A program made the position numbers and the translations under genes. A stretch of DNA of 40,204 nt from a virus. This document shows positions 10,176 through 38,625 of the stretch, in pieces. The notes below the pieces were generated by a model. It made no database searches and was not told the origin of the DNA. It saw only the letters and a program-made list of their open reading frames with translations. The stretch is taken from IMG/VR virus record IMGVR_UViG_3300023104_000127, positions 1 through 40,204 of that record. One strand, written 5' to 3'. The first letter of the stretch is position 1; every line of letters starts with the position of its first letter.

Positions 10176-10219
10176 ACAGAAAAAGGTACACTACGAATTT
10201 GCAGTGTACCTTTTTCTGT
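10176..10219. terminator. Perfect 17-bp hairpin overlapping promoter P2
   Basis: ACAGAAAAAGGTACACT (10176-10192) and its exact complement (10203-10219) flank a 10-base loop. Because each arm has five A or T next to a GC-containing stem, the element can act as a bidirectional intrinsic terminator. The proposed -7 element of the tape measure promoter lies in the loop. A transcript arriving from upstream would fold it, whereas one starting at P2 would contain only the second arm. Confidence 0.65.
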
Positions 10220-10319: not shown

Positions 10320-11744
10320 ATGTCAGAAGATAAACCCAATTCGTCAAAAGCAAGAATAAAGATGGATTCCATTGAAGATTCTAATTCGTCAAAAGAGAAG
10401 GTAGTAAAAGAGAAAGTGGTAAAAGATAAAATACCTGTTCGCGAAACTATCAAAAGCGAAATCGAAAATACTAATTCTGGTTATACCTCAAAAGTGATAA
10501 ATTCTACAGAGCCTCTTGGACAGTACACGTCGAAACCTCTGTCAGGTTTATTTAGTGGGCCTGTTTATTCATCTATATTAGCTAACAAGCTTAACTCGGA
10601 TCTTTTTTCTACAAAAGCTTATGAATTAATTAATCCTATAAGTGAAATAAATAAAATAACTGACGTAAATCGAGAAGCACTCGCAATGCTAGGAAGCTCT
10701 CTGGCGGAAGCACAGCTTAAATTCAATAATAGTGGTCTGTTTGATACAATTGCAAATCTTAAGTCGAAGTCTATTGTCGCCAAGCCAGAGTACCTTCGAG
10801 ACTTAATTGAAAATTCTAAAATATTAAAAGAATCAAATGATTTACGAGCTCAGGAATTAGAAGAAGAAATTCTAAATCTTAAAAAACAGAAGAGACAAAA
10901 GGAAACTTCCTTAGTTGAGAAAATAACTCATGGAGCAGATGAAGATGCCGACAGCGAAATAAAGACAGATTATAAAAATCTTCAATTACTAAACAAAGAT
11001 CTAACTGATAAAATAGAATTACAGCATATTTTATCCAGGATTAATGAAGCTGCAAAAGATACCTTGCTGAAGTCTCAAAAGTTTAGAGATAGTTTCCTAA
11101 ATAAAAATGAATTTAAGAGTGTTGTTGTGTCAATTGATATACGACGATCAACAGATCTTATGTTAAAAGCAAGAACTCCACAACTTTATGCTAATTTTAT
11201 TACAGGTTTAACTAACAAGCTCTCGGAAGTAATTAAACAAAATTTTGGCATTTTTGATAAATTCACTGGTGATGGAATTCTAGCTTTTTTTCCAGACTTT
11301 TTTAGCGGAAAAGATTTGATTTATCATGCACTGTTGGCGGCACAACAATGTCACGACATTTTTAATTTGCATTATAACGAGCATAGATCCACATTCAATG
11401 TTTTTATATCGGATATCGGATTAGGGATCGGAATTGATTACGGAACAGTTTCGTTGGTTAATTCAGGAAGTGAATTAACCGTTGTGGGAATTCCTGTTGT
11501 CTATGCTTGCCGAATGTCAAGTGCTCCCGTAGGAATTACTTTATTAAATCAACCGGCAATGGAAAAGGCTTTACAGTTATATGATAAATTTGTGGATATT
11601 GAAGAAGAGTATATTCCCATAAAACATGAAGGGCAGGCTCTTGCATACACTACAAAGTTAAACTACAAAGCGATGAGTAAACCAGAAGCGCCCGACTGGA
11701 TTTCTTTTCCTGCTGATTCAGAAGATCAGAACGAAAAACAGTAA
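10320..11744 (+). CDS. Class III nucleotide cyclase protein, Pycsar-like cargo
   Basis: The 474-aa protein has a low-complexity N-terminus with short repeats (EKVVK twice near residues 26-35), a coiled coil near 160-250, and a C-terminal class III nucleotidyl cyclase domain (about 265-450). Metal-binding aspartates are Asp273 in SIDIRRST and Asp318 in KFTGDGILAFF; GLGIGIDYGTVSLVN (367-381) and VVGIPVVYACRM with Arg398 complete the active site. Cyclases of this kind make cUMP or cCMP in Pycsar anti-phage systems, but ordinary cAMP/cGMP cyclases share the motifs and nucleotide choice cannot be read here. No TIR or membrane effector gene adjoins. It runs against the phage genes, is AT-richer, and lies between the connector genes and the tape measure, so it is probably acquired cargo. 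Confidence 0.8.
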   Translation: MSEDKPNSSKARIKMDSIEDSNSSKEKVVKEKVVKDKIPVRETIKSEIENTNSGYTSKVINSTEPLGQYTSKPLSGLFSGPVYSSILANKLNSDLFSTKAYELINPISEINKITDVNREALAMLGSSLAEAQLKFNNSGLFDTIANLKSKSIVAKPEYLRDLIENSKILKESNDLRAQELEEEILNLKKQKRQKETSLVEKITHGADEDADSEIKTDYKNLQLLNKDLTDKIELQHILSRINEAAKDTLLKSQKFRDSFLNKNEFKSVVVSIDIRRSTDLMLKARTPQLYANFITGLTNKLSEVIKQNFGIFDKFTGDGILAFFPDFFSGKDLIYHALLAAQQCHDIFNLHYNEHRSTFNVFISDIGLGIGIDYGTVSLVNSGSELTVVGIPVVYACRMSSAPVGITLLNQPAMEKALQLYDKFVDIEEEYIPIKHEGQALAYTTKLNYKAMSKPEAPDWISFPADSEDQNEKQ

Positions 11745-11750
11745 TTTTCA

Positions 11751-11780
11751 TAAGTGACGATGGAAATTCAACGTCACTTA
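11751..11780. terminator. Bidirectional terminator between convergent genes
   Basis: TAAGTGACG (11751-11759) and CGTCACTTA (11772-11780) form a perfect 9-bp stem around a 12-base loop. It lies between the stop of the plus-strand cyclase and the stop of the minus-strand gene at 11785, and would serve both. T-tracts are weak. Confidence 0.6.
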
Positions 11781-11784
11781 CCAT

Positions 11785-12402
11785 CTAATCCGCCCGATCA
11801 TAAAAAGGCCTTTCATAATATTCCTTCATCGCCTGCATCATTACCGGGGGAAGTTTAGTCATGAGGTATAATGATATCTCCGAATAAACTTCCCCCTTAT
11901 TGACATTATAAAAGCTATTACCACGCCGTTTGATGGTGTTTTGCTGCATAATTGCCCGCCCCATCCCGTAAGCAACCCTTGTAAGTGCCCTGTCATACGT
12001 AAGCTCTTTGTTTTGCTTGCGGCCAATATGATAACCTGGAACATACAATTGAACATCCTTCCCATTGATCGAAACGGTTTCGTTTTTAATAAACTTATCC
12101 ACGCCCAGTTCTTCCACAAATTCTTTTAACATTTCTGCATTCGGGAATTTTGAATAACTGATCTGGCGCATATCCTTAAAACGGCCATACCCGCGCATAC
12201 CCATTCGGAATGAAGCTTCCAGCTGGTCGGTAATAAAGGACCGTTCAGAATACAGTGAATTTTTGAGCTGGTCGGTCAAAGAAATGCCGGCGCTTTCCAT
12301 ATCCTTTCGCATACGGCGTACTCCCTCCGTAAAAATCCGGTCACAGGCTTCTATGACCTGGCTTTCAAAGATCTTTTGAATTTCGGGCGTAACCTCAGAC
12401 AT
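11785..12402 (-). CDS. Putative tail completion or connector protein
   Basis: The 205-aa protein is soluble and mostly helical, with no signal peptide. It is not recognised by motif. The gene overlaps the previous one by eight bases and ends the operon that begins with the portal region, one slot before the tape measure (ignoring the inserted cyclase). In other phages this slot holds tail terminator, tail completion or chaperone proteins. I see no slippery sequence that would support a G/GT-type frameshift with its neighbour. Confidence 0.6.
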   Translation of the reverse strand: MSEVTPEIQKIFESQVIEACDRIFTEGVRRMRKDMESAGISLTDQLKNSLYSERSFITDQLEASFRMGMRGYGRFKDMRQISYSKFPNAEMLKEFVEELGVDKFIKNETVSINGKDVQLYVPGYHIGRKQNKELTYDRALTRVAYGMGRAIMQQNTIKRRGNSFYNVNKGEVYSEISLYLMTKLPPVMMQAMKEYYERPFYDRAD

Positions 12403-16737: not shown

Positions 16738-18106
16738 CGTTCTGTTGGGTTTGTTGTGAATTAGGATCCTTTGCGCCAGAATCCTGGCTAGTTTTTGATT
16801 CTTTGCCCGCTGGGTTTTTGTCATCGCTGACCAGTAAAATGTCAAAGAAACCGGCGTGGACATCCTCCGGAAGTTTCAAAGCGGCTTTTACATCGCGGTT
16901 GAAAGGTGAAAGGATTAGCTGCCGTTCACGGGGTGTACGAAAGAATTGCTGATAGTTGGCTGAAACTTTTAATTCAGATCCGGATCCGCCGATCGTCTTA
17001 CCGTCTGAAACGCCAGCCAGGGTAGGAAGTAATCTGGAAGCGTTGGCAAATGCACGGAGCGCGGTGTCGTAGGCTTCCTGTAATTCTTTGGCATTTAGTG
17101 ACCGCTTGATCTCTTCAAAGGCAATCATACCAGCCAGTTTTCCATCAGAGCCAAAGTCACATTCGTCAAAGATCACACGCGGACCGTCTTCGCTGACGAT
17201 CATCTTTTCTACATTTTTATAGAAATCATCGCGGACCTTTTGCTTTTCTTTTTCGGTGTCAAAACTATCGTCATTCTGGTTTTCCTCAAACGCTGCAGCA
17301 TTAGCCACCATTTGATCAAAATAAGAGGTAGCAACCCGGCAAATGTGGGCGATGTTCTTATTATGCTTAACAGTCTGGCCGATCGATTTAGCAATAAAGT
17401 TCATGACCTCGATCCACTGAACAGTTTCATCACCCCAGTACTGGGCAAAGCCGTAGTAAGGTTGTCCGGTTTGGAAAGGTCGTAGCTGGAAAATGGTTTC
17501 TTCCAGCTTGGCATTAGCCAAATTATAAGCAGGAACAGCGATCGTATTCTTGCTTACACTTTCAGAGCTGGCCCAATCCGAATTTAATAACCATGTTTCT
17601 ACATTCCGGGTGTGGGCGATGGTGGCCCGGCAAACCAAACTATCCTTGATGCTGTAAACCGGAAGTTTTCCCACCAGCGAGCGGTTTACAAAGATGTTTC
17701 CGGTTTCAATCAAAGACGTACACATTTGATTGACCACGTTCCCCAGATCATCCATTCCATAGGCTGCCAAATACTCTTCAGTAGCTTTGTTGGTGAATGG
17801 TTCGCGGGTGATGATCCCGTTTTTGTTGACGTGTTTGAACCATCCGAAACCACCACCATACAGAAAATCCGCCCTGGCTTCGATCAGGTTTTGAGCATCA
17901 CCGTTTGTTCTTAAAAGTTTTATCCGCTCGTTGGGCAAAAGGTTGTTTTCGCCCCAGGGATATAGCTCAAAGTCCTTGCCGTTGGATTTTACGGTCCGCT
18001 GAACATTACCGCGCGAACTGTTGATGTCGCGCTGCTGATCCGGATCCACGGACGCGGACTTTGAAAACGGGATCATCCTGATTTTGGGTCTTGTTTTATT
18101 TGACAT
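16727..18106 (-). CDS. Phage portal protein
   Basis: The 459-aa protein lies after terminase in the transcription order and has portal features: FELYPWGENNLLPNERIKLLRTNGDAQ near residues 47-73, a central helical region (about 85-160), and a C-terminal stretch with KVSANYQQFFRTPRERQLIL that fits a portal wing or crown. The last 35 residues are a Ser/Gln/Asp-rich, probably disordered tail. Portals form the dodecameric DNA channel at one capsid vertex. There is no classical signature motif that I can verify by eye, so size, order and general pattern carry the call. Confidence 0.75.
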   Translation of the reverse strand: MSNKTRPKIRMIPFSKSASVDPDQQRDINSSRGNVQRTVKSNGKDFELYPWGENNLLPNERIKLLRTNGDAQNLIEARADFLYGGGFGWFKHVNKNGIITREPFTNKATEEYLAAYGMDDLGNVVNQMCTSLIETGNIFVNRSLVGKLPVYSIKDSLVCRATIAHTRNVETWLLNSDWASSESVSKNTIAVPAYNLANAKLEETIFQLRPFQTGQPYYGFAQYWGDETVQWIEVMNFIAKSIGQTVKHNKNIAHICRVATSYFDQMVANAAAFEENQNDDSFDTEKEKQKVRDDFYKNVEKMIVSEDGPRVIFDECDFGSDGKLAGMIAFEEIKRSLNAKELQEAYDTALRAFANASRLLPTLAGVSDGKTIGGSGSELKVSANYQQFFRTPRERQLILSPFNRDVKAALKLPEDVHAGFFDILLVSDDKNPAGKESKTSQDSGAKDPNSQQTQQNDAA

Positions 18107-18612: not shown

Positions 18613-20310
18613 TTAAGCCGCATTTCTTGTTACCTTCTCTAAAATCATTCTAACGAAGTGAATAAGTTGGTCAGATGTTTCCTTTAAGAATATCTTATTG
18701 AGAGCTAATACAATCCAATTGTTCTTCCTAGATGTACCTAATTGCATCCAGCCTTCTAATTCCCCGACTGGAATTATAAATATATTTTTATCATTAAGTT
18801 CATTTATTAATTCTAAAACTTTCGCCCTAGTCTCTTGGTCAAAACCATCTATTCCATATTTTTTGGGAATCGCCCACTTTGAGGTTTCTTTCCTAATTCT
18901 GTTCAATGCCCCTTTTGCGCCACCAAAAGAATGTTCCGAATTATTTAATTGTTCAAGAAATTCAGCGATATGTTGTTTTAGCCTTTCTAGAACCTCTTGT
19001 TCGGATGAATTGTCAACGGAATCCGCAATTTCTTCCCGGGCAGTAAGGAGTGCAGGTGTCGCTTCTGATTGTGTTACAGCTAAATATAAGTTTTTAAAGT
19101 CAGTTTCGTCATTTAATAAATCAATATCTGCAATAACACCGACTGGTATTTGGGTGGCTATTAGGAGGGAGGCAACATCTTTCAATGTTTGCTTATTGTG
19201 AGAGTACACAAATAACACTTCCTGATTATTATGATGTAAAGTTGATACAGTTTGGTAGACAATTCTATCAGCATCGGCTTCACATACAATTACAGCTTTA
19301 TGGAATATTGCTTCCAAAACACGTTGGCTGGAAAGCATTGGTGATTTTGCTAGATTTTCAGTTGCGTCGGGAGGAATCAGTCTAAAAGTAGTATCATTAC
19401 CATTTCGGTTAAGTCTGTAAATATCTACTTTTTTGTCGCTCTGTAATAAACCACTTAAAAAATTTGAATTATGTGTTGAAATAATTAGCTGTCCAGATAT
19501 TATATCAGAATTATCTGCGATCCATTTACCTAGGTACCTGGCCTGTGCAGGATGCAAAAATGCCTCAGGCTCGTCTAATAAAACTATCCGGTCTTGAGAA
19601 AATAATAAGCTGAGCACAATTCCGACAAAGCTTCTAAAACCGTCGCCTTGGTCATCTATTCTGTTAAAGTCTTTTGTAATCAAATATGCCTTGCGTGGAT
19701 CTTCTGGAATTTCAGGAAACTCTCTGGCAACTCTTAAGCAAAAGTCTTTTAGCCCACTGTAATCAAGCATTATCTCCATTCCAAATGCTTCATAAAATGC
19801 ACTTTTAAGTAATTCTTCGATATCCTTATTTAAAAAAAGGTTTTGAAGAATATTTTCTGGTTCTTCAGTATCTGGATTAAAGGAACCCGTAGCGTGAATT
19901 AGATTTAGTCTTGTAGAAGAGTCTAAATATGAGACTTTTAATTTACTAAGATTACCCAAGGTCCAATTCAAATCGTTTTGATTTTTAAAGCGATCTTCCA
20001 AAAACGCTTGGCTTATTTCAAAACCATCTTGACCTGTCAAATAATTGTTTATACCAGTTATTTTTTTATTTCCAACATTATTACGGCTATCTGTAACTTT
20101 AAGATTTACAAATAATTCTTCAATATTTTCTGGCTTGTGAAACTTGATTTCTGTGAGCAATACAAAATTGCTTGTTGGACCAACAAGCATACGTTGTTGA
20201 ATATCTTTAAGAGTTTGGGATTTGCCAACGTTGTTTGCTCCTACAAGAATTGAAATCTTCCCTAAATTTATTGTTTGCTCGTTCTTTAAAATAACACTTT
20301 CTATTTTCAT
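18613..20310 (-). CDS. OLD-family ATPase with TOPRIM domain
   Basis: The 565-aa protein has an N-terminal ABC-type ATPase and a C-terminal TOPRIM nuclease-like domain. Walker A is GANNVGKS (24-31), the signature region GDGFRS lies at 222-227, Walker B is RIVLLDEPEA (241-250) and the switch His is in ISTHNSN (277-283). TOPRIM residues are Glu344 in IVCEADAD and Asp395/Asp397 in IADIDLL, with GELEG near 516-520. Relatives include P2 Old, GajA of Gabija and related anti-phage ATPases. No UvrD-like GajB partner is adjacent. The gene is AT-richer than the phage genes and interrupts the usual terminase-portal order, so it looks like acquired defence cargo; its exact target is unknown. Confidence 0.85.
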   Translation of the reverse strand: MKIESVILKNEQTINLGKISILVGANNVGKSQTLKDIQQRMLVGPTSNFVLLTEIKFHKPENIEELFVNLKVTDSRNNVGNKKITGINNYLTGQDGFEISQAFLEDRFKNQNDLNWTLGNLSKLKVSYLDSSTRLNLIHATGSFNPDTEEPENILQNLFLNKDIEELLKSAFYEAFGMEIMLDYSGLKDFCLRVAREFPEIPEDPRKAYLITKDFNRIDDQGDGFRSFVGIVLSLLFSQDRIVLLDEPEAFLHPAQARYLGKWIADNSDIISGQLIISTHNSNFLSGLLQSDKKVDIYRLNRNGNDTTFRLIPPDATENLAKSPMLSSQRVLEAIFHKAVIVCEADADRIVYQTVSTLHHNNQEVLFVYSHNKQTLKDVASLLIATQIPVGVIADIDLLNDETDFKNLYLAVTQSEATPALLTAREEIADSVDNSSEQEVLERLKQHIAEFLEQLNNSEHSFGGAKGALNRIRKETSKWAIPKKYGIDGFDQETRAKVLELINELNDKNIFIIPVGELEGWMQLGTSRKNNWIVLALNKIFLKETSDQLIHFVRMILEKVTRNAA

Positions 20311-20649: not shown

Positions 20650-22248
20650 CTACCCTGATTTTCCAAAGCGTGGTCCGGATCCAGTCGCTGCAATCGGAAC
20701 AATTCGAGAATATTTTTTAAATAAAATGTAATCGAATGCATCAGAAAGGTGTGTTGCATATTGTTGGTCGAGCGTCTTAGAGTCTTCACTTGACTTGTCC
20801 TTTTCGAAGTTATCGCCAATTATTGGTGTGTGCTTAAGACTTATCAAAAGGCTTTTGCAATCCTGTTCATTGATCCGAATGCGAGGCGCTGAAGCATGTT
20901 TCTCTGAAAGAATTGTATTGATAACACGATAACGAATCTTGTATGGAGGATAAGAGTTCTGCACACAGTCTACAATTCGCCAATGGTGATCAGCCAATAC
21001 TTTCTTGTACAGCTGATAGTGTGTCTTGTTGCGCCCTGGATCGCCCTTCTTGCCGCTGTTGTCTCCATAGATGTACACAACCTTTTTAATGTGGTCCTTA
21101 TACTTAGTACAGAATTTATGGGCCAGCTCTTCCACTAGGCTGGTATCAGCACGTTTCACAAACAGGTTATCAATAAACCTTAGCTCTTTGTCGTGCTCCT
21201 GAGCGATGACTTGACAGGTAAACTTTGCGTTAAAGTCCAGGCTGATTTCAATGGGCTTGGTGGTCAGGTAATCCTTACGCTTGTAGATATAGAGCCTGGA
21301 TTTATCATCATACTGGTACTCGTACATATCGCTGTACGTGTGCCGGTTGTAGGATAGGGCGCTGTAATAAGCGTTTTCAATCTTTTCTACCCGTCTGTTC
21401 ATGACCTCAATATCAAAGGCTAGATCTGATTCAGACGCCTCTCTTTCCTGCTCGATCCAGTTACCTGGCAAATTGGCCAGGTTATCGTATGGCGTGGATT
21501 CCATGAAGAAATACTGATTAGGCTTACTTTTCATAAGCTCTTCAGTCCTGTAAATCCACTGCTGTTCTGGCGTCCATGCTGCGGATGTAAAGTCAGCGAT
21601 CAGCCAATGAAGGGGATGGTTTAATCCTTTTCTACCTTTCCTGGAATCCCGGTAGGTGTATTTATTGGCACGGACGGTTTTGCGTAAAACGGTATTGTAG
21701 AACGATTCTTTCAGCTTAAAACTCTCATCCATCACCAGCTGGTCCAGGTTTAAACCGCGTGCGGTGTCCGGACGATCGGCCGAAAGAAACACGATGGTAT
21801 AGCCGTTTTTGAAGCAAACGCAGTTGTCATACGTATTTACACCCTCCCAGGGATGCCACCAGCCTTCGGGCGGACGGCGGTTAATGACATAATGCCCCCA
21901 TGTCCGGATCTTTGGATCATATTCATGCAGACCATATTCAGCAAATACTTTCCGGCTCTGAGAAAGTACGACATCCTGAACGTGCCGGAAAGTCATCGAA
22001 GCAAGCCCCATCTTTGCACGTGGCAATTCAAACGCAGATTCTGCGATCAGTCGCATTAAAACGTTAGTTTTCCCACACCCCCTACCACCGTTAAAAGTGG
22101 CCCGAAATCCTGACTGATATCCAATTCCATCTTTGCCAATAAAATCAGCTTCGTTTTCCAGAACCTTAAAAAGGAAGTGGGCCTGTGCCGGATTAGGGTG
22201 TAGCTTGATATACGAGGGATCATCAACGTACTTCTGTACTTTCGACAT
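20650..22248 (-). CDS. terL: Terminase large subunit
   Basis: The 532-aa protein packages DNA into the prohead by ATP-driven translocation and cuts the concatemer. Walker A is GGRGCGKT (54-61), Walker B is LDQLVMDES (168-176) and the RNase H-like nuclease acidic residues are Asp338 in ISLDFNAKF, Asp396 in YGDNSG and Asp503 in HLSDAFDY. I chose the ATG at 22248 because a full AGGAGG (22255-22260 on the minus strand) lies six bases before it, a rare strong Shine-Dalgarno in this window. The gene overlaps the small-subunit gene by 26 bases. An in-frame start at 22293 would add 15 residues. Confidence 0.92.
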   Translation of the reverse strand: MSKVQKYVDDPSYIKLHPNPAQAHFLFKVLENEADFIGKDGIGYQSGFRATFNGGRGCGKTNVLMRLIAESAFELPRAKMGLASMTFRHVQDVVLSQSRKVFAEYGLHEYDPKIRTWGHYVINRRPPEGWWHPWEGVNTYDNCVCFKNGYTIVFLSADRPDTARGLNLDQLVMDESFKLKESFYNTVLRKTVRANKYTYRDSRKGRKGLNHPLHWLIADFTSAAWTPEQQWIYRTEELMKSKPNQYFFMESTPYDNLANLPGNWIEQEREASESDLAFDIEVMNRRVEKIENAYYSALSYNRHTYSDMYEYQYDDKSRLYIYKRKDYLTTKPIEISLDFNAKFTCQVIAQEHDKELRFIDNLFVKRADTSLVEELAHKFCTKYKDHIKKVVYIYGDNSGKKGDPGRNKTHYQLYKKVLADHHWRIVDCVQNSYPPYKIRYRVINTILSEKHASAPRIRINEQDCKSLLISLKHTPIIGDNFEKDKSSEDSKTLDQQYATHLSDAFDYILFKKYSRIVPIAATGSGPRFGKSG

Positions 22249-22765
22249 CGATAACCTCCTTCCCTTGGCTACCTGGTACATGAACATCGCCATTGACTAC
22301 GTATACACGTACGCCGGTTGGCATCGCTTCTCCTGGCTGGATTAGATTATCGACTTCATCCAGTTTGCTAAGCTTAGCAATCCGTTCGGCCGCTTTCATG
22401 ATCACATCCGGATCTGCATCGCGCTGGCCAATACTTAAAGCAAGGTAAAGCGCTTCAATTAAAATTTTAGCAATCCCACGTTTATCCAGATCATAGGCAA
22501 TTCCCCAAAGCTCGTAGGCATCCCTTAAAATCTGATACGCGTGGGTTTTTTCGTGGCCGTATTCATTGTGCAGCATGGCCACCACTTGTGAAGGGGAAAA
22601 CATTTTGCTGGACCAACTCCATGCTTTTTTCATTTTCTCAAAATACAGCTGATCCCGCTGGTTCAGCTTGGCGCCATTAACCAGGTGATCTTTATATTTG
22701 TCCATTTTGTGCTCACCCTTTTCAGGTAAGCCAGGCGCCCCCAAAGGCATTAGCTCATTATTCAT
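22223..22765 (-). CDS. terS: Terminase small subunit
   Basis: The 180-aa protein directly precedes and overlaps the large-subunit gene, the usual position for the DNA-recognition subunit. It is mostly helical, with a helix-turn-helix-like part near residues 55-85 (FSPSQVVAMLHNEYGHEKTHAYQ written in pieces: SPSQVVAML, then THAYQILRDAYEL). The C-terminus is a beta-prone oligomerisation-like tail with VRVYVVNGDVHVPGSQG. The internal strong ribosome site for the large subunit lies in its last codons. Its promoter is P5, and an inverted repeat ends at the start codon. Confidence 0.8.
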   Translation of the reverse strand: MNNELMPLGAPGLPEKGEHKMDKYKDHLVNGAKLNQRDQLYFEKMKKAWSWSSKMFSPSQVVAMLHNEYGHEKTHAYQILRDAYELWGIAYDLDKRGIAKILIEALYLALSIGQRDADPDVIMKAAERIAKLSKLDEVDNLIQPGEAMPTGVRVYVVNGDVHVPGSQGKEVIDVESTEVR

Positions 22766-34974: not shown

Positions 34975-35253
34975 TTAAAATGGTAGATCATCTTTTTCTG
35001 CGTCCGTAGCGATCCGGGTTCCGCTGGCGCTATCCCAAACTATTTCGCCGTTCCCTAACCAGACACGTTTTGCGTCAGCTTCTCTTTCTTCCTTGGTTTG
35101 CGAATGCCAGGCGGACACGTCTTTTCCGTACTGGTCTTTGGTATCCTTCGTTCCGACTGAAATGTTCAGATACAATTTCCCATTTTTACCTGTTGTGATT
35201 TTGCTTTTATCGATGTCAGATAAGCAGATTGATAATGACAGAATTAAACTCAT
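34975..35253 (-). CDS. Small protein with SSB-like C-terminal tail
   Basis: The 92-aa protein has beta strands near residues 1-40 (MSLILSLSICLSDI, then KNGKLYLNISVGTKD), a helical charged middle and a C-terminus EKDDLPF. The acidic tail ending Leu-Pro-Phe resembles the DDDIPF tip with which single-stranded DNA-binding proteins recruit partners. A small OB-fold DNA-binding protein is plausible near a primase-helicase and a putative origin, but the fold cannot be proven here. Confidence 0.55.
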   Translation of the reverse strand: MSLILSLSICLSDIDKSKITTGKNGKLYLNISVGTKDTKDQYGKDVSAWHSQTKEEREADAKRVWLGNGEIVWDSASGTRIATDAEKDDLPF

Positions 35254-35330
35254 GATTTTGAATTAATTGGTTGTGAAAAAATAAGTTTTGAAAGTTTTGG
35301 TGATCAGTTCGACGCTATCAAACAGTATCG

Positions 35331-35633
35331 TTAGACAATCGGCATTTCGTTTTTCCAGGGTTTTAGCTTTTCAAGGCGTATAAAATGGATGAAGTCTTTA
35401 ATTTCTATGTACTCTACTTTTTCTTCCGGAACGATCAGCACGTCCACCGCGATCCGGTCAAACCCTTGTGAATGCTTATTGTTAGGATCCAGGCCATGAT
35501 AAAAACCTGTGATGATAAGCAGGCGATCCCTTGAATCAACCCACCGGCTCCATTTATGTATTGGATAGCGGTTTGCATCGATCCGCGTTACTTTTTCAAA
35601 GTTTTCAATTGCACTTTCCTGAGATATCTCCAT
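35331..35633 (-). CDS. Hypothetical early protein
   Basis: The product is 100 aa from the ATG at 35633 (MEISQESAIENFEKVTRIDA); an upstream in-frame ATG at 35669 would give 112 aa. It is soluble, with WSRWVDSRDRLLIITGFYHG in the middle, and not recognised. It is the first gene leftward of the TACTACA repeat array. Confidence 0.6.
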   Translation of the reverse strand: MEISQESAIENFEKVTRIDANRYPIHKWSRWVDSRDRLLIITGFYHGLDPNNKHSQGFDRIAVDVLIVPEEKVEYIEIKDFIHFIRLEKLKPWKNEMPIV

Positions 35634-35677
35634 GATTTTAACAGAAAAAAATTCGTGAGTTTTGACCAATGTTTTTT

Positions 35678-35866
35678 TACTACACTACGCTGATTTTGTA
35701 AGTAATTGATAAAGAGTGACGTATATCCCAATTAGGTGTAGTAGCGCTGTTACTACATCTACTACACATACTACATTACTACACCTTTACTACACTTTTA
35801 CTACAACTTTACTACACATTTAATATTGATTATCAATTACTTATCTCCCTTTGTAGTCTTGTAGTA
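35678..35866. repeat. TACTACA iteron-like array with flanking inverted repeat
   Basis: Seven direct TACTACA copies start at 35751, 35760, 35769, 35777, 35788, 35799 and 35810; the last four are spaced exactly 11 bases. Another copy lies at 35678, and inverted copies (TGTAGTA) at 35737 and 35860. A perfect 14-bp inverted repeat (35699-35712 and 35830-35843) brackets the main array, and the sequence is AT-rich. Iterons of this kind bind initiator proteins at replication origins or act as operators. Its place right after the primase-helicase gene favours an origin; this is inference. Confidence 0.7.
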
Positions 35867-35889
35867 GATTTTTATTTACTTTTTATTTT

Positions 35890-38625
35890 TCAGGAAATAG
35901 AATTTCCTGTTGATCTGTTTTGAAAGTCTATTCCAAAACTTTGTTGTATCTGCTTATATTCCAGCTCACAAGATCCCGAATGGGGTAGGGTTGTGGCCTT
36001 TGAATTTGAGGTCCCATCGTTGGCAAATCTGATCCCTTTTGAAATTTCCTCCCAGTCTGATTTTCCGCAAAGTGTAGCAAGTTCTGACTGGATCGTGTCC
36101 CGATCGGGCGGAGACTTGTAAAAAAGCTGCCGATACTTCTGAGAAAACAAATTGTACAATTTCCGGAAATTCAAAAGGATCGTATTGCCGGTAAACCGGA
36201 AGTGAAATTCTTCATGGATCTGATTGACATCATATAGCATCTGCAGGATTTCGAAGAATTCAGACACCGCTTTGCTATCGTTCATAATACGCCACTGGCG
36301 CATGATGAAGGTTTCGCCCATGCTCAGATATTCCTGCAAAATTTCTTGTTCGTCGGTAGTCTCAAAATCAAGCAGGTTGATCTTTCCCATACACTGCAGC
36401 GTATAAGATGCGGCCAGGATCTGAGACATATTTGCAAAAAGCCTTTCGGGAACGCTCTGCCCTTTAAAGTTCTTTTTCAGTCCGGCATATAGCCGGTTGT
36501 AACTGGTGCCATAATTCCCATTTTCCAAAAGATGCCGGTATTTAAGCAGCTCAACGGTCATGCTGCCCAGGCCGCCTTCCTGTATTTCTTCCAGGGCATA
36601 GAAAGCCGTACGCTGTTCGTCTGTTTTGTTTTGCGCGGTGATTGGTACAAAAAGACATCTGGAAAAGAAAATCGGGTTCGCCGGTATGTAATTACTTGTC
36701 AGGGCCAGGGCACTATGGATATCCACTGTAGCTGTATCAATGGAATTGAAATCAGAAGTTGATTTATGATAGCCATCATTGTCATAGGCAGCCTGCAGGA
36801 GCCCTTCATTGGTCAGCTCGTTGTGGAATTCATCAAACCAAATAATACTATTGCTGGTCTGGCTCATAAGCTTTACCAGGGCGGCATCCGTGTTTTTACT
36901 TTTCAAGTTTACACCTTCCTGTTTGCGGCCAAATCCAGCGGTCAGGATGCGGATCATGGAAGACTTACCGGTGCCGGCGCCACCCTTCAAGAAAAGGATT
37001 GGTGAAAAGTTTTTAAACTGTAATCCCAGATCCCGGAACAGGCTGAAAATATAAAAGCATACAGGTAAAAAAGCGTTTTCCTTTAAATGGGCAATAGCGT
37101 AGATTTTCCAGAACTGTTGAAATTCCACTACCTGGTCCGTCAGCGTGTAGCGCATTTGCCGGATCTTTGTTTGCTGTGGTATTGAAAGGTGTAAATTATT
37201 GGCTTCAATAATTCCAAACTCGTCAGGGACCAGCATTGCACCAGTTTTTAGATTGAGTGCCTTATTAGCGAAAAAATAAACCTTGCTATCCGGATGATAT
37301 CCATAACGCAGCACCTTCATGGCAGTACTGAACTTGGTGCGGGTGAACAAATAAGAATGAAGCTCGTCCAGGTGGCCGTCCTTAATTTTGAAACCCAGCC
37401 GTTTGGTGGCCAGCATATTTTTCAGCTTTCGGGCGCTGCAAAAATCATCGTGGATCACTTCAATGAAAATCTGGGTGTCATCATTTTTGCGGATCTCTAA
37501 CACCCAGGTAACATTTTCCTGTTCGTCCTCTGTCCGGTATTTTATAAAGACCTGAAAGTTTGGTGCTACTTCGTCAAAGTACTTTCCTGATTTGATTTCC
37601 ATTCCGCCATCCTTATACCAGACCGTTGGGTGAATCCTGTCTTGTTTCTCCTTTTTAGATTTGGTGTTGTTTGTCAGAGTGTTATGGTTAACTGTATTTT
37701 TAGTTATGTCACTTTCTTTGGTAGGCTTTTCCTTTTTCGGTGCGCTGGTATCAATGCCGTAGTCCTTACAGATAGAAACAAGCTTGGCAATGTTGGTGAA
37801 GCGTGAAGTTTTCAGCGCGTTGTCAAACTTCGCGTCAGTAGCCTTTTCATCATACTTCGCGTTCTGTTTGCTGATCCGGTGAAAATACGTGCGGCCGTTT
37901 TCGCGCAGTACTGACAAACTGAAAGCAATCAATAGCCATTCCGTGCCATAGTCATTACAGATATCCATGGTGTTGGCTTCAATCCGGTCAGTAAGCACAG
38001 AAACCCATTTTTCCAGCTCAGTGGCGTCCTTTTCGATCTGGCGTTCAGACTTTGGCTTTTCCGGAATTCTGTTTTGGATCGTGTAGACTTTTGAATCAGG
38101 ATTATAGTATACCGCTGGATCGTGTGAAATAAAGCATGCACGGGATACGTCGGATCCGCTGGGATCTACCTTTTCCTGGTCAGATAGGTTGTAAGATTGG
38201 TTAAAGTAAAACGCTAGGTCCGCAAATGTTTCCTTATGTCGATCACCATCTTTGATCTTGATAACAACCTTTAATCCATTGCCCGATGGGGAAATGAAAC
38301 AGGCATTCACAAAAGGATCCTGCTGAAATTGCATCTTCAGACTTTCCGGATCCTGGATGTGATCCAAATCGATAACGATCAGGCCGCTATGTTCTTTTAA
38401 ATTAGCAGCTAAGCGGGTCGGGGCAAAAACTCCGGAGAATGTTACAAAGTCCAATGACTTCTTTTGGAACGCCGCTTCTTTGGTATTTGAAGCAGCCCGG
38501 ACATTACCGATCTGAGCGGCATACTTACCATCCCGGATCCAGGCAATCACTTCCGGCAGGGAAGTGGTACGATCGGGTTTTCTTACGTTGATACCTCCTA
38601 AAAAGAGGCTAAAAATATCAGGCAT
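35890..38625 (-). CDS. Primase-helicase with BT4734/VirE-N domain
   Basis: The 911-aa protein combines a BT4734-like/VirE N-terminal primase-type domain (about residues 10-185, with VIDLDH at 84-89 holding Asp86 and Asp88, and SPSGNGLKVVIKI at 112-124), a PriCT-like helical region (about 200-292), a Lys/Asn-rich linker (about 296-330), a middle domain, and a C-terminal SF3-like helicase ATPase. Walker A is GGAGTGKS (548-555) and Walker B SIIWFDEF (593-600). Such proteins start and drive phage DNA replication. An iteron-like array follows the stop codon and a structured leader precedes the start. Confidence 0.85.
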   Translation of the reverse strand: MPDIFSLFLGGINVRKPDRTTSLPEVIAWIRDGKYAAQIGNVRAASNTKEAAFQKKSLDFVTFSGVFAPTRLAANLKEHSGLIVIDLDHIQDPESLKMQFQQDPFVNACFISPSGNGLKVVIKIKDGDRHKETFADLAFYFNQSYNLSDQEKVDPSGSDVSRACFISHDPAVYYNPDSKVYTIQNRIPEKPKSERQIEKDATELEKWVSVLTDRIEANTMDICNDYGTEWLLIAFSLSVLRENGRTYFHRISKQNAKYDEKATDAKFDNALKTSRFTNIAKLVSICKDYGIDTSAPKKEKPTKESDITKNTVNHNTLTNNTKSKKEKQDRIHPTVWYKDGGMEIKSGKYFDEVAPNFQVFIKYRTEDEQENVTWVLEIRKNDDTQIFIEVIHDDFCSARKLKNMLATKRLGFKIKDGHLDELHSYLFTRTKFSTAMKVLRYGYHPDSKVYFFANKALNLKTGAMLVPDEFGIIEANNLHLSIPQQTKIRQMRYTLTDQVVEFQQFWKIYAIAHLKENAFLPVCFYIFSLFRDLGLQFKNFSPILFLKGGAGTGKSSMIRILTAGFGRKQEGVNLKSKNTDAALVKLMSQTSNSIIWFDEFHNELTNEGLLQAAYDNDGYHKSTSDFNSIDTATVDIHSALALTSNYIPANPIFFSRCLFVPITAQNKTDEQRTAFYALEEIQEGGLGSMTVELLKYRHLLENGNYGTSYNRLYAGLKKNFKGQSVPERLFANMSQILAASYTLQCMGKINLLDFETTDEQEILQEYLSMGETFIMRQWRIMNDSKAVSEFFEILQMLYDVNQIHEEFHFRFTGNTILLNFRKLYNLFSQKYRQLFYKSPPDRDTIQSELATLCGKSDWEEISKGIRFANDGTSNSKATTLPHSGSCELEYKQIQQSFGIDFQNRSTGNSIS

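Follow-up and report, generated by a model that had tools for sequence, protein, structure and literature searches.

We conclude, with a probability of roughly 85%, that positions 35678-35866 of the window (the whole stretch of DNA analysed, i.e., the full length, 40,204 bp, of one IMG/VR virus record) form the replication origin of this tailed phage of Bacteroidota, that the origin is of the SaPI/PICI pri-rep-ori type, and that it is bound by the phage's own primase-helicase. The evidence consists of the anatomy of an iteron array, its conservation in relatives, its linkage to VapE/SF3 initiators with a position on the 3' side of their genes, and a joint change of iteron and initiator wing in related phages. 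The first-pass annotation had proposed a candidate origin beside the primase-helicase gene, and this proposal gains support since array and gene are associated in both directions across diverged phages, from the word to the gene and from the gene to any word, and since their order matches that of the pri-rep-ori replicons (PMC6092414).

Genome Context of the Array

The window carries genes for a tape measure, a large terminase (20650-22293, ca. 13 kb from the array), and an S49 head protease, which identifies its source as a tailed phage; the ends of the record are not established and it may, therefore, be incomplete. The closest homologues of its primase-helicase come from Dyadobacter, Rhabdobacter, and Rudanella, and its gene order is paralleled by that of Flavobacterium phage laban6-1 (family Duneviridae). 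The array is located in a 255-bp gap that separates the 3' end of the primase-helicase gene from the start of a small gene (ATG at 35633; Table 1), homologues of which (27-74% identical) occur solely within the window's own group. The cumulative GC skew reaches its minimum near the array, at 36.6 kb, a weak sign as nearly all genes run one way.

Several other features of the window deserve mention. Between the structural genes, on the minus strand, an OLD-like AAA ATPase/TOPRIM gene (18613-20310; G+C ca. 0.36) looks like a cargo defence gene, and a low-G+C gene of the AbiGi family (PF10899; 22904-23920, plus strand), oriented opposite to its neighbours, is probably phage-defence cargo. A further low-G+C gene on the plus strand (10320-11744; 474 aa) matches no Pfam family and a PHROG only weakly, and close to it a 17-bp inverted repeat (10176-10219) spans the start of the tape-measure gene and the gap upstream of it.

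Anatomy of the Iteron Array

The core of the array consists of direct copies of TACTACA that start at 35751, 35760, 35769, 35777, 35788, 35799, and 35810. These exact coordinates confirm what had been described, i.e., seven copies in 66 bases, the last four at a period of exactly 11 bp. An eighth copy is present at 35678, and the inverted copies reported on both sides of the array were recovered at 35737 and 35860, the latter preceded by TGTAGTC at 35852. The copies at 35737 and 35751 together form a palindrome with arms of 7 bp and a spacer of 7 bp, which the relatives possess as well, and the outer pair nearest the primase stop (ACTACAnnACTACAA) is conserved in all six aligned sequences. The interval 35678-35866, as originally delimited, exactly brackets the outer site pairs, and the array starts 24 bp from the primase stop. 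Read in gene sense, the element opens with an inverted tandem pair and an IHF-type site to which TTGATAATCAA is fused; the seven direct sites come next, then the opposed site that completes the imperfect palindrome, and the second IHF-type site and a direct tandem pair close the element. The gap between the genes holds eight exact copies of TACTACA and two of TGTAGTA, compared to 0.29 expected when this gap is modelled as a first-order Markov chain (mean of 5000 trials; maximum 4). In a scan that made no assumption on the motif, ACTACA, with 11 copies, was the top short-word cluster of the 40.2-kb record. The T-rich stretch next to the primase stop is possibly the segment that melts.

Table 1. 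Coordinates of the candidate origin and its neighbouring genes in the window.
Feature	Position	Strand	Remark
Small conserved gene following the array, ca. 101 aa from ATG	35331-35633	-	
Far-side outer pair, TACTACA overlapping a second copy (gene-sense CGTAGTGTAGTA)	35678-35688	+	
Left arm of 14-bp inverted repeat	35699-35712		Perfect IHF-consensus-type site
Lone inverted TGTAGTA	35737-35743	-	Imperfect palindrome with copy at 35751
Core iteron array, seven TACTACA (gene-sense TGTAGTA)	35751-35816	+	Kept in relatives' alignment
11-bp palindrome TTGATTATCAA	35826-35836		Same word inside laban6-1 array
Right arm of 14-bp inverted repeat	35830-35843		Perfect IHF-consensus-type site, overlaps TTGATNATCAA palindrome
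Outer tandem pair nearest primase stop, TGTAGTC + TGTAGTA, spacing 8 bp	35852-35866	-	
T-rich stretch, 95% A+T	35871-35890		
Primase-helicase, 911 aa	35890-38625	-	Proposed initiator

An exact 14-bp inverted repeat is by itself mildly unusual, ca. 1.2 such repeats being expected per 40 kb. Both of its arms are perfect matches to the IHF consensus WATCAANNNNTTR, of which 0.025 would be expected per 255 bp, and the relatives have similar sites at the positions of the arms, without perfect complementarity (e.g., 10/14 in D. crusticola). Judged from these sequences, the repeat is, therefore, probably best taken as two conserved bend-type protein sites rather than as a hairpin. The earlier description of a framing inverted repeat thus holds as far as its exactness is concerned, and is refined as to what the arms may represent. 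A host protein of the HU/IHF family would be their user.

Conservation and Linkage to Initiator Genes

Absence of the array beside the primase gene in close relatives had been named as an observation that would speak against an origin; the array turned out to be present in every close relative found. It directly follows the primase stop in all loci with a homologous primase (L007-L015), the primase relatives that were fetched (47-76% identical) all have the same layout at the same place, and few columns in the alignment of the window with its relatives are conserved as well as the iterons. Two of the loci (L008 and L009) show a concerted variant of the array with TGTAGTC and a few TGTAGTT. The array was also found intact in bacterial genomes, with phage genes on both sides; a strict three-site pattern occurred in only 2 of 396 bacterial genomes of the phylum, being too strict to be informative. 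A literature search in open-licence papers, which misses most subscription papers, returned no report of the TACTACA word, the layout, or an origin in Bacteroidota phages.

Viral contigs were scanned for three TACTACA sites at a spacing of 10-11 bp, which yielded 54 contigs, compared to 14 for the reversed word as a control; the counts do not represent independent lineages, as there are several nearly identical loci among them. Loci with at least six sites in 260 bp encode a VapE-like or window-type helicase, and the array is always on its 3' side. The exceptions are L038, with a D5-type helicase, and L042, L053, and L056, which are cut by contig ends; in L062 the VapE gene shares the contig with the array at a distance of ca. 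6 kb. A VapE/SF3-type helicase gene is absent from all 26 loci that have 3-5 sites and from all 14 reversed-word controls. In L019, L026, L028, and related loci with 3-4 sites, TGTAGTA forms short tandem repeats that lack the multi-part layout; the large gene near the three named loci is a terminase rather than a helicase, and loci of this type are possibly a different kind of site.

The search in the opposite direction took alignments of the proteins of two VapE groups as its starting point, with an array defined as a non-simple 6-mer occurring at least six times in 250 bp. Arrays lie within 640 bp 3' of the gene for 41 of the 74 dereplicated VapE initiators, a count that includes related loci, vs. 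3 of 72 within 640 bp on the 5' side (Fisher p = 1.9e-12). As controls, shuffled sequence gave 0 arrays, and 11 of 550 other 700-bp segments of these loci contained one. The other 33 of the 74 initiators lack an array by this 6-mer definition, which misses degenerate or displaced arrays; for some VapE initiators (L099-L178, the A3 distant set) no array is visible within 2.6 kb, and such initiators have either degenerate words or another type of origin. The words found 3' of VapE initiators include ACTACA, GTTGTA, GTAGCA, GTGGTA, GGAAAC, and CTGTAA. Flavobacterium phages laban6-1, which is syntenic, and 1H carry GTTGAGA arrays directly 3' of the primase, and these share the layout of outer pairs and core. 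A GGTAAC array is located one gene further in mumin9-1 and a TGTCCGA array in the replication region of Mea-Yong924-1, and scans of phages P12024S and phi46:1 revealed no visible array. The arrays of named phages were placed at 38195-38355 (L091), after 5983 (L089), at 17453-17708 (L094), and at 11726-11961 (L095).

The Proposed Initiator Protein

The primase-helicase contains a BT4734-like N domain and a PriCT_2 domain, both above the Pfam cut-offs, followed by an SF3/AAA-type motor, for which the AAA match was sub-threshold and the Walker A (GGAGTGKSS) and Walker B (IIWFDE) motifs were recognised from the sequence, and by a winged-helix-like end (residues ca. 786-889). In a structural model of low confidence (pLDDT 58), its C-terminus has the winged-helix order of elements seen in the VapE initiator L140, and the best Foldseek match of this low-confidence model is SaPIBov1 Rep (8tch; E = 2e-3). 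Sequence searches of the PDB with profiles A3 and A4 gave no match.

What reads the iterons is indicated by three VapE initiators that are 83-84% identical, two with the iteron TGTTGTA (L140 and L141) and one with TGTAGTA (L142). Their aligned arrays differ by a T to A change in 8 out of 8 aligned iterons. The columns at which L140 and L141 agree with each other and differ from L142 are concentrated after the recognition-helix motif GQALTALGY (14/24 vs. 24/361 elsewhere; p = 7e-10). In the model of L140 (mean pLDDT 90), which as a whole matches PriRep1 with dsDNA (7pds; E = 8e-15), these switch positions fall in the wing of the C-terminal winged helix (residues ca. 334-387). The comparison of TGTAGCA with TGTAGTA points weakly to the wing (5/27 vs. 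19/362; p = 0.02), and among diverged pairs the pairwise wing identity has no clear trend. Within the window family, the diagnostic residues for TGTAGTC vs. TGTAGTA show no C-terminal excess (3/103 vs. 15/761). Support for a covariation of iteron word and initiator wing is thus drawn from relatives rather than from the protein encoded in the window. The primase-helicase and the neighbouring small proteins had both been suggested as binding partners of the array; of these, it is the primase-helicase that probably reads the sites, and not a neighbouring small protein.

Proposed Mechanism

We envisage that the primase-helicase, whose gene lies directly upstream, would bind to the TGTAGTA iterons via its C-terminal winged helix and line up on the central array with its 11-bp period and on the inverted outer pairs. 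Bending by an HU/IHF-type protein at both arms of the 14-bp repeat would bring the central array and the outer pairs together. The initiator would subsequently open up the A+T-rich flank, be loaded in the form of a hexameric SF3 helicase, and then prime DNA synthesis, and it is in this way that the origin would presumably fire in this phage.

Whether tailed phages with VapE/SF3 initiators generally share one replicator blueprint 3' of the gene, in which inverted tandem pairs enclose a central array of direct copies plus a single opposed copy and only the word, read by the wing, changes, seems to us an evenly balanced question. If they do, natural switches would amount to a readable protein-DNA code, and sequence alone would suffice to predict origins and pair initiators. 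The origins of most uncultured phages are unknown, and the rule suggested here is to look 3' of the VapE/SF3 initiator. Natural matched pairs of initiator and iteron also point to the residues that read DNA, L140/L141 vs. L142 being a ready-made specificity-switch pair.

Alternative Explanations

The array could instead be an operator, at which a phage regulator, or the primase regulating itself, controls the following gene or genes, and its sites, lying in the intergenic gap, indeed precede the small gene in the direction of transcription. However, the constant partner of the array is the SF3 helicase on its 5' side, while the gene on the other side varies by group (a small protein, a DEAD helicase, or a protein of 163-176 aa), and in groups C and D the array reaches into the helicase gene's end or lies directly against it. 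Moreover, the iterons change their base in step with the helicase wing, and an operator would not need as many as eleven sites in a fixed layout of several parts. We consider an operator alone unlikely; dual use as origin and operator is possible. Other types of nucleoprotein site, i.e., for packaging (cos/pac), partition, or phage attachment, can all pair repeats with IHF-type sites, and the truncated contigs L053 and L056 have their arrays near terminase genes. In the window, however, the large terminase gene is far from the array, and neither ParB nor an integrase was found among the window proteins scanned (a subset of the ORFs). The array is not a crossover site, since it is intact in bacterial genomes between phage genes. 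We regard this group of explanations as very improbable. A tRNA-type attachment site was rejected for the same reason and because the window has no tRNA, and a structured RNA because Rfam yielded no match over 35000-36600 at E ≤ 0.1.

It is similarly hard to believe that the arms of the 14-bp repeat pair and that a cruciform is recognised instead of the iterons, as in a hairpin origin of the pRN1/BIP-1 type. The arms in the window are perfectly complementary, and pRN1 requires a stem-loop of ca. 100 nt 3' of its primase-SF3 helicase gene (PMC4234260). Yet the single-strand DNA fold is only mildly better than that of shuffled sequences (z = -2.0; 8 of 200 shuffles were equally good), and in the relatives the iterons are kept while the arms are imperfect complements, conserved as IHF-type sites instead. 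An iteron origin remains our preferred reading.

Comparison With Known Replication Systems

Several replicons resemble the proposed origin in part. The alpha protein of phage P4 is a primase-helicase initiator that works with iterons, a likeness to the present case, and P4 needs two sites, ori and crr. An ori/crr system of this type was rejected because the 40.2-kb record, which may be incomplete, contains a single array only. Origins of the lambda O/RepA type have direct repeats about one helical turn apart, A+T-rich neighbouring DNA, and IHF-type sites, all of which have counterparts here; they differ in that a host helicase is loaded there, whereas the candidate initiator is here itself a primase-helicase. 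In the crenarchaeal plasmid pRN1 (ORF904) and phage BIP-1, the origin is likewise located just downstream of the element's own replication gene, which encodes a primase-SF3-winged-helix protein, but it is described as a long stem-loop (PMC4234260) instead of a conserved set of iterons. With the weak fold and with arms that relatives do not keep as complements, a stem-loop origin of the pRN1 type was rejected.

The closest counterpart is the pri-rep-ori module of the SaPI/PICI replicons, whose tested origin lies 3' of pri-rep and whose iteron word varies by element (PMC6092414), as it does here between phages. Both have a primase and an SF3 helicase, sometimes fused, with the origin immediately 3' of the gene. 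The window has a primase with an SF3/D5/VapE-type helicase and, directly after the 3' end of the rep gene, a region that resembles an origin. That the word is specific to its initiator is indicated by L140/L141/L142, in which the change of word tracks the wing. The folds are alike as well, the initiator of the relatives resembling PriRep1 (7pds) and the low-confidence model of the window primase resembling SaPIBov1 Rep (8tch). The element is not itself a PICI since it sits in a phage with virion genes of its own; the carrier here is a tailed phage of Bacteroidota hosts, there a satellite. The PICI layout has two iteron sets that flank an AT-rich segment; in the phage, outer pairs also flank A+T-rich segments, yet an additional central array, with an opposed copy, is located between them. 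We do not claim that the layouts are identical, but the order in the phages is closely similar, with the central array as an extra element.
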